A stretch of DNA of 20,901 nt, from IMG/VR virus record IMGVR_UViG_3300025282_003454, positions 1 to 20,901 of that record. One strand, written 5' to 3'. The notes below the pieces were generated by a model. It searched no databases. It was not told the origin of the DNA and saw nothing but the letters and a program-made list of their open reading frames with translations. Source of the DNA: a virus. How positions within the stretch are numbered: the stretch's first letter is position 1; each line of letters starts with the position of its first letter. Shown here piece after piece: positions 4,706 to 10,636 of the stretch. Position numbers and translations under genes: made by a program.

Positions 4706-5956
4706 TCACTGAGATAAAAGGCAGGCCTTCCCACCGGTGTAATCCTCCCATCGCTGAATCACTACGTCACAATATCGCGGCTCAATCTCCATAGCATAGC
4801 ACCGACGACCCAACCGCTCGGCGGCGATAATGGTCGTGCCAGAGCCGACGAAGGGGTCGTAGACGTCCCCGTCATGGTAGGAGATGGGCCGCTCCATACA
4901 CTCCAGCGGCTTCTGCGTACTGTGACCGCCGTCAGGGGCGTCGGGCGAGACGTTCTTGTCTAATGATATATCCCAGACCGTCGAGGCGTTCGCTGGGCCA
5001 ATCCACGCGGCCTGACGGCCCTTCCTGATCGCGTACCAACACGCCTCATGCTGGAACGTGTAATGTCCGCGTGAGATTGGGAAGTGAGGCTTGCGCCACA
5101 TCACCGACGCCCGAATCTCAAACCCCGCCGACTGGAGAGCCAGCCCCGAAACAATACAATCTGCACCGGGTGCGCTCCAGCAGTACGCCACGTCGCCGGG
5201 AAACAGTCGCCACGCATCCGACCAGTCGGTGCGGGTGTCGGCGGTAACTAATCCCACGCGGCTCGCCGCGTAAGCTAACTGCCCCGCTTCATACGCTTCG
5301 TTCCTCCAGTTGGGGTCGTAGTTCACGCCATAAGGCGGGTCAGTAATCATAAGGTTAGGAATGTTCCCATCCAAAAGAACAAGTACATCCTCCTCTGAGG
5401 TGGCATCCCCGCACATGAGACGGTGCTGCCCCAGACTCCAGACCTCGCCCCGCTGTACTGTCGGCTCGTAATCGTCGGCCTCGACATCGTCCATCGCCTC
5501 GTCCGCGTCGAACCCCTCGTCCGGCGGGTCAGGCTCCAGCAACGTCAACGGCTCGTAATTACCTTTTGCCAGAGCTCTCAGCATCTCGCTCACATGGTCT
5601 GACTCTGAATTTATGCCGTCCAGGAGGGAGCCCAGTTTCTCATTGTCCCGTCCCGCCATCGAGGCCAGGGGGTCGAGGGTTGCCAGTATCTTGTCAGCTT
5701 CATCATCGGAGACATCAAGGACCAGGACGGGAACTTCCTCATCCGGGGTTGTTTCGGCACGGAGGTGGCCGTCTATCAATGTAAGGCCCAGGGAGCCCTC
5801 ATATGCAATCAGGGCATCGGCATAGCCAACTTCAGCCAGCATACCCGCTATTGCCTGCTGCTGTGCGGGAGGATGGGTTCTCCAGTTCTTGGGATTGGGA
5901 ATGATCTCCGACGCTTTGACACGCCGCAGTTCTTTGATCCTGTCCCTGATTGCCAA
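4706..5956 (-). CDS. ParB-domain / N4-N6 DNA methyltransferase
   Basis: 416-residue two-domain protein. The N-terminal part (about 14-110) is a ParB/sulfiredoxin-like domain with NPKNWRTHP at 21-29 and TLIDGHLRAE at 59-68, typical of phage ParB-methylase fusions. An acidic linker (EPDPPDEGFDADEAMDD) follows at 141-157. The C-terminal methyltransferase has DPPY at 206-209 (catalytic), HSTQKP at 345-350 and DPFVGSGTT at 367-375 (AdoMet binding); the order with DPPY first is beta-class. It should methylate adenine N6 or cytosine N4 in phage DNA, perhaps for protection from restriction; no cognate nuclease is seen. The start is TTG at 5956 with GGAGG six bases upstream and an in-frame TGA six bases before it. 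It is the first gene of the leftward block. Confidence 0.93.
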   Translation of the reverse strand: MAIRDRIKELRRVKASEIIPNPKNWRTHPPAQQQAIAGMLAEVGYADALIAYEGSLGLTLIDGHLRAETTPDEEVPVLVLDVSDDEADKILATLDPLASMAGRDNEKLGSLLDGINSESDHVSEMLRALAKGNYEPLTLLEPDPPDEGFDADEAMDDVEADDYEPTVQRGEVWSLGQHRLMCGDATSEEDVLVLLDGNIPNLMITDPPYGVNYDPNWRNEAYEAGQLAYAASRVGLVTADTRTDWSDAWRLFPGDVAYCWSAPGADCIVSGLALQSAGFEIRASVMWRKPHFPISRGHYTFQHEACWYAIRKGRQAAWIGPANASTVWDISLDKNVSPDAPDGGHSTQKPLECMERPISYHDGDVYDPFVGSGTTIIAAERLGRRCYAMEIEPRYCDVVIQRWEDYTGGKACLLSQ

Positions 5957-6796: not shown

Positions 6797-7485
6797 TTAC
6801 CGCAAGCATTGAGATCGATGTCAGTGACATCAGGCCCGTGGTTGACTACAAAGGGGCTCCTGAGTGGGAACTGACTGCTATGGTTCCGTGGAGCAAGCAT
6901 CCCATAAGCCCGAAACTGTATTTGAAACGGGAGGAGGGCGAAAGGGATTCACCCTGGGACTTTCCGGCCAAATATAAAGCCCTGGTGGGACGGGGTGATC
7001 TGTTGAAAGACAAGGACACCGGAGAATCCAAGAGCGGGGATCTTGTCTGGAACTACCGCTATAAATTACTCGAATTCCCGCTTTCCGATGACGCACCACT
7101 GAGCCAGACAACGAACTGGTACAAGGACATTTTCTGCGTCCAGGAATCGCAGGGATATCCAGCGGAATCGAGTATTGATCCGGTGGTTCAGGCTATCGAA
7201 GGGGATTTGGTGGAGGATGTCCTGGAGGAAGAGAAATCCCCGAATCCCTACGGCCGACAACCAACCGCAGATTACCGTCAGGCCCAGATCATGTACCAGG
7301 CAGCACGGCATGATGCTATCCCGCTTATATGTACCTTTCCCGACTCATACCTAACCAAGGATAAAAGGCATCCAAACGATATCCGAAAGGCAGTTTTGAA
7401 ATTAACCAATGCCATATTCCGCGAATACTGGGAGGACATGATCAAACCCCGATTCCCTGACACTGTCTGGGAAGAGACCCTGTGA
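6793..7485 (+). CDS. Hypothetical early protein upstream of the initiator
   Basis: 230 residues, not recognised. The N-terminal half has alternating strands with aromatic positions (WELTAMVPWSKH, SGDLVWNYRYKLLEF, TTNWYKDIFCVQ), an acidic linker at about 130-150 (EGDLVEDVLEEEK), and a helical C-terminal part (YRQAQIMYQAARHD, DIRKAVLKLTNAIFREYWEDM). A strand-rich start followed by an acidic linker could suit a single-strand DNA-binding or replication accessory role, but there is no diagnostic motif. It overlaps its neighbours by four bases on each side (ATGA, GTGA) and lies just before the initiator gene. Confidence 0.75.
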   Translation: MITASIEIDVSDIRPVVDYKGAPEWELTAMVPWSKHPISPKLYLKREEGERDSPWDFPAKYKALVGRGDLLKDKDTGESKSGDLVWNYRYKLLEFPLSDDAPLSQTTNWYKDIFCVQESQGYPAESSIDPVVQAIEGDLVEDVLEEEKSPNPYGRQPTADYRQAQIMYQAARHDAIPLICTFPDSYLTKDKRHPNDIRKAVLKLTNAIFREYWEDMIKPRFPDTVWEETL

Positions 7486-8324
7486 GGCGCATAACCGAGT
7501 GGATTTTCAGTCTGGATGTTTCCGCGTCTGACAGGTTGGTACTGTTTGCACTGTGCCGATCTGTCGGTTGCGGAGATTCCGAGGTGGAGGCATCCGTCTG
7601 GGATATCCGGTCTTCCACATCACTTGCCGAAAATACCGTTAGAAAATCGATTCGCCGTCTGCTTGACCTGGGGTTGATAGAACGCCCTGGTGGAAACATG
7701 GGTGGACGGAAACCACGCTACATTATCAGGATGAACCCTACCAATATTGGTAGCCTTGCCAGAATTAACCCTACCAAAATTGGTAGTGTTGGCCGCTTTA
7801 ACCCTACCAAAATTGGTACCCCTACCAAAATTGGTACTCCCAAAATTGGTAGTGTTCAGGCACAACCCGAAAACTCCGACCGAATTATGACCGAATCAGA
7901 GTCCCATATCCCTATCCCTGTTATTAAAGGATCTATTGATTCTATTGATACTAAGGATACAGAGCATTTATTTTTTCCGGCTATTTCAATCCTTAGAGGA
8001 ATCGAGGGATATAACCTGACTTATGAAAAGGAACAGGGTCTCCTCGGTTGGCTTGATTCAAAAAAGTGTTCGATTGAAATAGCAGAGGAATCTGCAAACG
8101 CCATGTATATGAACCTGTCCCTGCACCACGCAAAAGACGGTTCTAAATCGTGGACATACCGTAAGAGTGACGGGGGCCGTAAAAGTGGCTATTACAAGAC
8201 CCTGGACGGCGTATTTCGGGCATGGGTCGGCACCAGGATGAGAGATGCCCCTGTAAACTACCTTCAAAAACACGGCACCGATCCGTCCAAGGTTTTTAAA
8301 AGGCTCAGGGATCAGAGAAGATGA
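7482..8324 (+). CDS. Replication initiator-like winged-helix protein carrying the iterons
   Basis: 280 residues. Residues 13-83 look like a winged helix-turn-helix of the phage replication type: RLVLFALCRSVG, then SLAENTVRKSIRRLLDLGLIERPG (HTH and wing) and KPRYIIR. Residues 85-124 are a low-complexity stretch (NPTKIGS repeats) because this DNA is an array of 14-base dyad repeats. The C-terminal region from about 165 is helical and basic (GYYKTLDGVFRAWVG, KVFKRLRDQRR) and may contact the helicase loader encoded next door. Layout and neighbours match the lambda O kind of initiator: DNA-binding N-terminus, origin inside the gene, loader gene next. The GTG start overlaps the previous stop, and its stop overlaps the loader ATG. 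Without the repeats, a plain transcriptional regulator would be the alternative. Confidence 0.78.
   Translation: MRRITEWIFSLDVSASDRLVLFALCRSVGCGDSEVEASVWDIRSSTSLAENTVRKSIRRLLDLGLIERPGGNMGGRKPRYIIRMNPTNIGSLARINPTKIGSVGRFNPTKIGTPTKIGTPKIGSVQAQPENSDRIMTESESHIPIPVIKGSIDSIDTKDTEHLFFPAISILRGIEGYNLTYEKEQGLLGWLDSKKCSIEIAEESANAMYMNLSLHHAKDGSKSWTYRKSDGGRKSGYYKTLDGVFRAWVGTRMRDAPVNYLQKHGTDPSKVFKRLRDQRR
7734..7852 (+). repeat. Iteron array (five dyad repeats), putative replication origin
   Basis: Five copies of a 14-base dyad, TACCA-4 bases-TGGTA, start at 7739, 7772, 7805, 7823 and 7838. Copies 2-4 are identical (TACCAAAATTGGTA); copy 1 has ATAT in the centre; copy 5 has one change in its left arm. The first three are preceded by AACCC and spaced exactly 33 bases apart, about three helical turns; the last two are 18 and 15 bases further on. 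All spacings are multiples of three, keeping the host gene open. Arms and spacing fit binding sites for the encoded initiator. Function is inferred. Confidence 0.8.
7861..7990. other. AT-rich segment after the iterons, putative unwinding region
   Basis: Directly after the iteron array the base composition falls; by hand count bases 7921-7980 hold 17 G or C in 60. Two perfect nine-base tandem copies of TCTATTGAT lie at 7932-7949, and a TTTATTTTTT run at about 7967-7976. In lambda and in iteron plasmids an AT-rich stretch next to the iterons is where the duplex opens. This is still coding sequence of the initiator gene. Confidence 0.6.
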
Positions 8325-9106
8325 CCGGAAACTTTAAAAAAATAGATCTCCGGAAATATTCCAGGGCAAAGGTTGTGTTTCCTGAATCAACACAGTGTTC
8401 CGAATGTGGTTTTTTTGATACCTCACAACCGATTGTCCAACAACTGGTGGAAGAGGCGGGAAGGCTCCTGTCCGACGCAAAATGCCGTTGTCCGAGCAGG
8501 GAGGAGGAAAAGCTCGCAAGAGAGGAGAAACGCCGTAAATGGGCCAACCTGCCACATAATGATTCCCCCAGGGTATTCGACACTTTTACGCAGAGGGAGG
8601 GAACCTCCGAGGCGGTTGATACCGTCTGGAAGTTCTCCCAGGGCCACGGGGCCAGGATTCTTGTTCTTGTGGGAGCCACCGGAACGGGGAAAAGCCACCT
8701 GCTTGAATCGGCAGGGCGGGAACTTCTGGACAGGGGTATCGGAGTCCGATACATACTCTGTGGGGACCTGGTTGACGAATTCCGGGAAACCTATTCCGAA
8801 AGCTCCGAGATTGAATACCATCAGTTGTTGGAAAGCTACAGGGACTGCCCTGTGATCCTACTTGACGACATAGGGATGGAAAGGCAGACCAGTTATGCCA
8901 ACGAGGTCATTACAAGGCTTGTTGAAAACCGGCTCCAGTATGGAGGGAGATTGCTTGTTGCGACTAATCTGGATTATGAAAGCATGGTCTCCAAATACGG
9001 GCATCGGCTCGCTTCCAGGATATGGAGCTCCCAGGTGAGCGATGAATTTGAGAATGTGATTATTACAGCAACCGATTTCCGTCTGGAGGTGAAGAATGAC
9101 AACTAA
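8321..9106 (+). CDS. DnaC-like AAA+ helicase loader
   Basis: 261 residues. C26-x2-C29 and C55-x-C57 form a likely N-terminal zinc site, followed by a basic helical linker. The AAA+ core has Walker A GATGTGKS at 118-125, Walker B VILLDDIG at 178-185, sensor-1 N216 in LLVATNLD and the arginine region RLASRIW at 229-235. This is the DnaC/IstB layout; the gene next to a phage initiator argues for a loader that places the host DnaB-type helicase at the origin, rather than an IstB transposition partner, since no transposase is present. The ATG overlaps the initiator stop (ATGA). The last codons contain the GGAGGTG and the ATG of the next gene. Confidence 0.92.
   Translation: MTGNFKKIDLRKYSRAKVVFPESTQCSECGFFDTSQPIVQQLVEEAGRLLSDAKCRCPSREEEKLAREEKRRKWANLPHNDSPRVFDTFTQREGTSEAVDTVWKFSQGHGARILVLVGATGTGKSHLLESAGRELLDRGIGVRYILCGDLVDEFRETYSESSEIEYHQLLESYRDCPVILLDDIGMERQTSYANEVITRLVENRLQYGGRLLVATNLDYESMVSKYGHRLASRIWSSQVSDEFENVIITATDFRLEVKNDN
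9091..9106 (+). repeat. Direct repeat, left copy, flanking the DUF4326 gene
   Basis: GAAGAATGACAACTAA. It contains the end of the loader gene and the start codon of the DUF4326 gene. The right copy at 9495-9510 differs at one base. Confidence 0.8.
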
Positions 9107-10027: not shown

Positions 10028-10272
10028 ACGTCGATAAGTTAATCAAAGAAGGTTATTCCGGCGAGGACATCGAGATGCTCGCCCTTTTAATGGAGAGGGC
10101 CAAAACCTGTCTCCACCGGCCAATCATTGTGGGAAACCGCCTGGGTGTGGAATTAAATTTCTGCCAGGATTGCGGGAGCCATATCGAAAAGAACCCAGGG
10201 GAACCGGATGTCGTCTACCGGATAACCCGCCTCCCCGATGGGACCGAGGTTGGGTATACCAGTGACTTCTAA
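10024..10272 (+). CDS. Small protein with Cys pair, possible zinc binding
   Basis: 82 residues: a helical N-terminus (YSGEDIEMLALLMERA), C29 followed by HRP, then CQDCG at 47-51 and a strand-rich end (VVYRITRLPDGTEVGY). C29/H31 plus CxxC could bind one zinc. ATG overlaps the upstream TGA within the repeated AAGGAGGAGAAATGA junction. It overlaps the nuclease gene downstream. Function unknown. Confidence 0.68.
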   Translation: MNVDKLIKEGYSGEDIEMLALLMERAKTCLHRPIIVGNRLGVELNFCQDCGSHIEKNPGEPDVVYRITRLPDGTEVGYTSDF

Positions 10273-10636
10273 GAAAAAATACCGCCGTCCAAGACGCAAG
10301 AAACAAATCTACTCCTCCGATCTGGATACAGACGGAAGGACGATTGTGGCATCCCAGTTGTCCGAGGCAGACTTTCAGAATCAGTTGAGAACCTACGCGA
10401 GGCTGATGGGATGGCTTTACTATCACCCATATGACAGCCGTAGATCCGACCCCGGATTTCCCGACACTGTCCTGGCAAGGGGAGACAGGATTATATTCGC
10501 CGAACTGAAAAAGGTTGGCGGGAAAGTATCACCGAACCAGAAACTCTGGCTAAATTCCTTGAGTGAACATCCAACCGTTGAGGTCTACACCTGGTATCCG
10601 CTCGACTGGGATCAGATCGAGGAGGTTTTGAAATGA
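10262..10636 (+). CDS. VRR-NUC domain nuclease
   Basis: 124 residues from GTG at 10262 (an ATG at 10238 in frame is the alternative; only the GTG has a GAGGT upstream, at a rather long spacing). After a very basic N-terminus comes a compact VRR-NUC fold of the PD-(D/E)XK class: E35 in SEADFQNQ, HPYDSRRSDPGFPD with D68, then E81-L-K83 in FAELKK and SPNQKLWLNSL. These are the expected catalytic residues. Stand-alone phage VRR-NUC proteins are thought to cut branched DNA such as Holliday junctions or flaps during replication and recombination, which fits this position after the replication genes. Confidence 0.88.
   Translation: MTSKKKYRRPRRKKQIYSSDLDTDGRTIVASQLSEADFQNQLRTYARLMGWLYYHPYDSRRSDPGFPDTVLARGDRIIFAELKKVGGKVSPNQKLWLNSLSEHPTVEVYTWYPLDWDQIEEVLK

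Follow-up and report, generated by a model that had tools for sequence, protein, structure and literature searches.

A putative replication origin within the initiator gene of an uncultured phage and its counterparts in other phage initiators

Introduction

In an uncultured phage, a gene encoding a winged-helix protein contains an array of TACCA-N4-TGGTA dyads that is translated into a repetitive peptide. The array raises the question of whether this DNA acts as a replication origin, and whether the DNA or the peptide is maintained by selection. The DNA analysed here, which we call the window, is the whole 20,901-bp IMG/VR record IMGVR_UViG_3300025282_003454, probably a fragment of the phage genome.

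Origins lying inside initiator genes have been described in two well-studied phages. The iterons of lambda are 18–19 bp imperfect inverted repeats, which are bound by O dimers inside gene O and adjoin an AT-rich region (PMC7466680, PMC6022878). Some lambdoid phages carry two extra iterons, corresponding to 13 more residues of O (PMC7466680), the same kind of effect of DNA on the linker as is proposed here. An in-frame deletion of iteron 4 of lambda abolishes the activity of O in trans (PMC6022878), which indicates that the lambda linker is under some constraint as protein. In Bacillus phage SPP1, the repeats bound by gp38 are located in gene 38 itself, the loader gene 39 lies directly downstream, and there is an AT-rich unwinding element (PMC6316719).

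A sequence-only reading of the window had proposed a lambda-like origin plan written inside the initiator gene. We estimate at about 0.85 the probability that the locus is a theta-type origin of the lambda/SPP1 style within its own initiator gene, a judgement that extends from the anatomy of the sequence to the binding and origin activity we infer from it. Such an origin is of an already known kind, and the window phage adds one ordinary, well-supported example.

Results

The features of the locus are listed in Table 1.

Table 1. Features of the putative origin and of its neighbouring genes in the window
Feature	Positions	Strand	Description
Initiator-like gene	7482–8324	+	280 aa, GTG start; winged helix, disordered linker and C-terminal region
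Winged-helix DNA-binding domain	7482–7736	+	hhalign; predicted helices and strands of a winged helix
Repetitive linker-coding stretch	7734–7853	+	NPTNIGS/NPTKIGS/NPTKIGT/PTKIGT/PKIGS (translation); predicted disordered
Dyad 1	7739–7752	.	TACCAATATTGGTA, perfect palindrome
Dyad 2	7772–7785	.	TACCAAAATTGGTA, perfect
Dyad 3	7805–7818	.	TACCAAAATTGGTA, perfect
Dyad 4	7823–7836	.	TACCAAAATTGGTA, perfect
Dyad 5	7838–7851	.	TCCCAAAATTGGTA, imperfect, one mismatch
AT-rich stretch	7917–7976	.	Candidate unwinding element; 26.7% GC over 60 bp
DnaC-like AAA+ helicase loader	8321–9106	+	phrog_50, E=5e-33; Pfam IstB_IS21, Bac_DnaA
VRR-NUC nuclease	10238–10636	+	PF08774, E=5e-6; downstream in the replication cluster

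The winged-helix assignment of the gene product was obtained from profile and structure comparisons. The Pfam search of the protein gave no family at E<=0.1, PF04492 (Phage_rep_O) and PF13730 (HTH_36) included, and the PHROG matches were to replication-initiation families and weak (best phrog_270, E=1.4e-5). By hhalign, the winged helix matched the HTH_36-type phage initiators (set A3) with a probability of 95.9% (E=6e-9) and, less closely, Phage_rep_O (set A2) with a probability of 86 (E=5e-6). The AlphaFold model showed a winged helix in residues 1–85 (pLDDT block means about 70–97) and disorder in residues 90–183. The best Foldseek matches were MarR-type winged helices at E>=2.6e-3 only; the PDB gave no sequence relative, and nothing by fold at E<=0.001. 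No close relatives of the initiator were found in viral contigs, phages or plasmids (plasmid best E=0.009).

The claim that the dyads lie inside a winged-helix gene and encode NPTKIGS/T repeats was borne out. Five dyads had been claimed, and their positions and spacings (33, 33, 18 and 15 bp, all multiples of 3) stand; only four of them are perfect palindromes. The array had also been said to keep helical phase, which is only approximate, as 33 bp correspond to 3.14 turns at 10.5 bp per turn, or about 50 degrees off per step. The window contains six TACCA-N4-TGGTA sites with up to one mismatch against 0.61 expected, and none of 100 shuffles reached six. The half-site TCCCA of the imperfect dyad 5 is that of Edwardsiella phage Edno5 (TCCCA-N4-TGGGA). 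A scan of the window for RNA families and tRNAs found none.

Such palindromes are commonly bound by dimeric winged-helix proteins, and MarR-type regulators were the best structural matches, so the dyads might be operators through which the protein controls its own gene or the downstream genes, with replication starting elsewhere. We consider this very unlikely. The array is located mid-gene, about 250 bp into the ORF, and the single weak promoter-like match near it is at the level of chance, whereas the layout, with the AT-rich stretch and the loader adjoining, fits the proven origins of lambda and SPP1.

The low-GC stretch with two tandem nine-mers that had been noted 3' of the dyads was confirmed. 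It is among the two lowest-GC 60-bp stretches of the contig and carries the TCTATTGAT nine-mers at 7932 and 7941. It lies about 80 bp beyond dyad 4 and does not abut the array, which counts against the origin reading. The DnaC-like loader gene, likewise recognised from the sequence, overlaps the stop of the initiator gene. Exact peptide patterns found no relatives of the loader in viral contigs, and among phages there were low-identity matches only. The GC skew minimum is near 6.0 kb, not 7.8 kb, which also counts against an origin at the array; however, the skew tracks gene orientation in a record that is probably a fragment, so we rejected GC skew as an uninformative marker of the origin. 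On the minus strand, positions 4706–5956 encode a DNA methyltransferase with an N-terminal ParB-like domain that adjoins the terminase genes, and several terminase relatives align to it over the N-terminal third only.

When the codons of the initiator gene were shuffled synonymously, none of 20,000 shuffles retained the four exact dyads; with a looser count, in which any repeated dyad was accepted, 2 of 2,000 shuffles reached four. Comparison of the first two 33-bp units showed one difference in the 19-bp dyad block and six in the 14-bp spacer. All the dyads of the window are in one reading frame.

To examine phage initiators more widely, survey loci were chosen by their winged-helix peptides alone, with no regard to dyads, and 60 deduplicated Phage_rep_O genes were obtained. 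At least three copies of one identical dyad occurred in 36 of these genes, and 24 did not reach three exact copies. For none of the 36 did any of 200 synonymous shuffles of the gene match the dyad count, and in 32 of them the copies fell in more than one reading frame. That 80 of 80 dyad copies avoid frames in which they would make a stop is automatic in an open gene and was not counted as evidence. The half-sites were specific to lineages (TTACC-N6, TTGCC-N6, TTATC-N6, GTTGC-N7, GTTAC-N7, GTACC-N5, TTACC-N7 and others). An AAA or TTT was present in the centre of 108 of 166 dyads (65%, against a background of 22%), and in 35 of 39 comparable genes the 100 bp past the array had a higher AT content than the gene as a whole. 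Spacings had a main peak at 18–24 bp and smaller ones near 30–33 and 68 bp, so that the 33-bp spacing of the window belongs to the second, minor peak seen in the family. Of 19 HTH_36 genes, the sites of which are mostly imperfect, only 2 contained three exact dyads; since exact dyads with 5-bp arms are too strict a definition for lambda and many HTH_36 genes, those counts are lower bounds. These results suggest conservation of the DNA site, with the linker peptide as its consequence, as shown by the dyads in 36 of the 60 genes, their several frames in 32 of the 36 and the half-site of each lineage. No earlier published survey of such dyads was found in the openly licensed literature.

The half-site and the recognition helix showed a partial correlation of 0.157, which 5 of 2000 permutations reached. 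Covariation specific to the recognition helix was rejected, because other windows of the domain scored higher and the signal did not go beyond relatedness. In seven genes (L064, L238, L239, L241, L246, L259 and L263) the first dyad copy apparently lies inside the wing-coding sequence, with the next copy about 68 bp on; no such copy was found in the gene of the window. In some Phage_rep_O genes, part of the DNA-contacting wing may thus be encoded by a copy of its own binding site.

Paired TACCA-N4-TGGTA dyads within 30 bp were found in 85 viral-contig stretches, whereas a control pair matched in composition gave 7. Many of the 85 sit in Phage_rep_O or HTH_36 initiators, just past the winged helix. 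The dyad is translated there as TKNG/TKIG, LPKMV or YQKR, sometimes within one gene. One of the 85 (L041, 5870–6010) lies in a replisome-organizer/DnaD-like initiator (phrog_6251), where many GGTACC-based dyads are followed by an A-rich tract; it suggests that the layout extends to another initiator family. The same search of bacterial genomes returned mostly unrelated repeats and only a few initiators, e.g., L146.

These translations bear on the possibility that the array is a flexible repetitive linker, useful as protein and derived from a recent tandem duplication, of which the DNA dyads are a by-product. The copies of the window share one frame and codons at spacings that are multiples of 3, and for this gene alone recent duplication with a constraint on the peptide could therefore still account for the array. 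As a full explanation we regard it as highly improbable: the spacers diverged (6 of 14 positions) and the dyads did not (1 of 19), none of the 20,000 synonymous shuffles kept the four exact dyads, and in relatives the same dyad yields unrelated peptides because two or three frames are used. The earlier proposal that the linker is forced by the DNA repeats thus receives support from this comparison of reading frames, and the linker was probably shaped by the DNA.

Discussion

The comparison with lambda O and its origin (PF04492) suggests that the plan is shared. In both, inverted repeats with an A-tract centre (PMC7466680) lie in the initiator gene, within the linker between the DNA-binding and C-terminal domains; an AT-rich stretch follows on their 3' side, and a loader gene is next. 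The sequence-only reading had contrasted its short inverted-repeat dyads with lambda, and this was mistaken, as the lambda iterons are also inverted repeats (PMC7466680, PMC6022878). The differences are elsewhere: the half-site is CTACCA in the window and of the TCCCT type in lambda, the spacings are 33, 33, 18 and 15 against 20, 24 and 23, the loader is DnaC-like instead of P, the initiator of the window has no PF04492 match, and its AT-rich stretch is further from the array. SPP1 gp38 and oriL, compared by layout alone, likewise have repeats in the initiator's own gene, an AT-rich element and a helicase-loader gene next; SPP1 departs from the window in its direct repeats, in the non-AAA+ type of its loader (gp39) and in having a further origin, oriR. 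The closest winged-helix domains by hhalign are those of HTH_36-type (PF13730) initiators, for example L054, L063, Acinetobacter phage AP22 gp76, Edwardsiella phage Edno5 and Vibrio phage Cla. They have a similar linker (TSTKIGTSTKNGTS, NDPKIGILNDPKIG), and several carry TACC-N6-GGTA sites, whereas identity is only about 20–28%, the spacings differ and some copies are in other frames. The plan of winged helix, dyad array in the linker, AT-rich stretch and downstream replication gene recurs among numerous phage initiators whose half-sites differ.

Relatives of the window by terminase are plentiful, and only one, the distant relative L441 (IMGVR_UViG_3300030329_003112; 67% terminase identity), retains a recognisable loader (34% identity). 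It has an ORF, a winged-helix initiator, a DnaC-like loader and a VRR-NUC-like ORF in the same order as in the window. The L441 linker contains three dyads, two of which are GTGTCAAAATGACAC, differing from the dyad of the window, and one is half-degenerate. BLASTP gave no alignment between the two initiators, which indicates that the layout, not the sequence, recurs.

Taken together, the origin reading is based on the order of winged helix, dyads in the linker, AT-rich stretch and loader, on the excess of dyads over synonymous shuffles, on the Phage_rep_O survey with its 3' AT-richness and A-tract centres, on the excess of TACCA pairs and the L441 layout, and on the precedents of lambda and SPP1 (PMC7466680, PMC6022878, PMC6316719). 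On the other side weigh the negative Pfam search of the initiator and the 24 Phage_rep_O and most HTH_36 genes that fall short of three exact dyads. We presume that the winged-helix domain binds each TACCA-N4-TGGTA dyad, which would probably be occupied by a single dimer. Several such dimers would wrap the array and put strain on the AT-rich stretch, which would then open. The C-terminal part of the initiator may recruit the DnaC-like loader, and the loader would place the host DnaB helicase. The NPTKIGS linker peptide would be translated binding sites under otherwise loose constraint.

The dyads could instead be recognised by a host protein. In favour of this, the TACCA dyad is found in phages with different initiator families. 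We consider a host binder extremely unlikely, because lambda O and SPP1 gp38 each bind their own gene, and because half-sites vary between related initiators and are similar where the proteins are similar, a pattern that fits a phage-encoded binder.

The survey also points to a rule for several initiator families, which we hold to be somewhat probable: the linker would be mainly the origin translated, with half-sites set by lineage and read in any stop-free frame, the peptide would arise as a by-product, and initiator and target would evolve together as one cis-linked cassette. As both travel in one gene, the initiator and its binding-site specificity can change together. The comparative survey matters more than the window, which gives one more phage with its origin in the initiator gene. 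With the frame test, selection on DNA can be told apart from selection on the peptide without experiment, origins may be read directly from the initiator genes of metagenomic phages, and the protein/half-site pairs form a large natural set for working out winged-helix recognition.

Dyads were also observed outside initiator genes. In L422 and L423, related by terminase, GTTGAC-type dyads (GTTGA-N3-TCAAC) form an array between genes at 5400–5530, just before a VRR-NUC-like gene, and no winged-helix initiator was recognised near it. In a Desulfobacterales contig (L166, 805–839), two TACCAAAATTGGTA dyads occupy a non-coding region that also holds other short repeats; a small helix-turn-helix-like ORF lies downstream of them.
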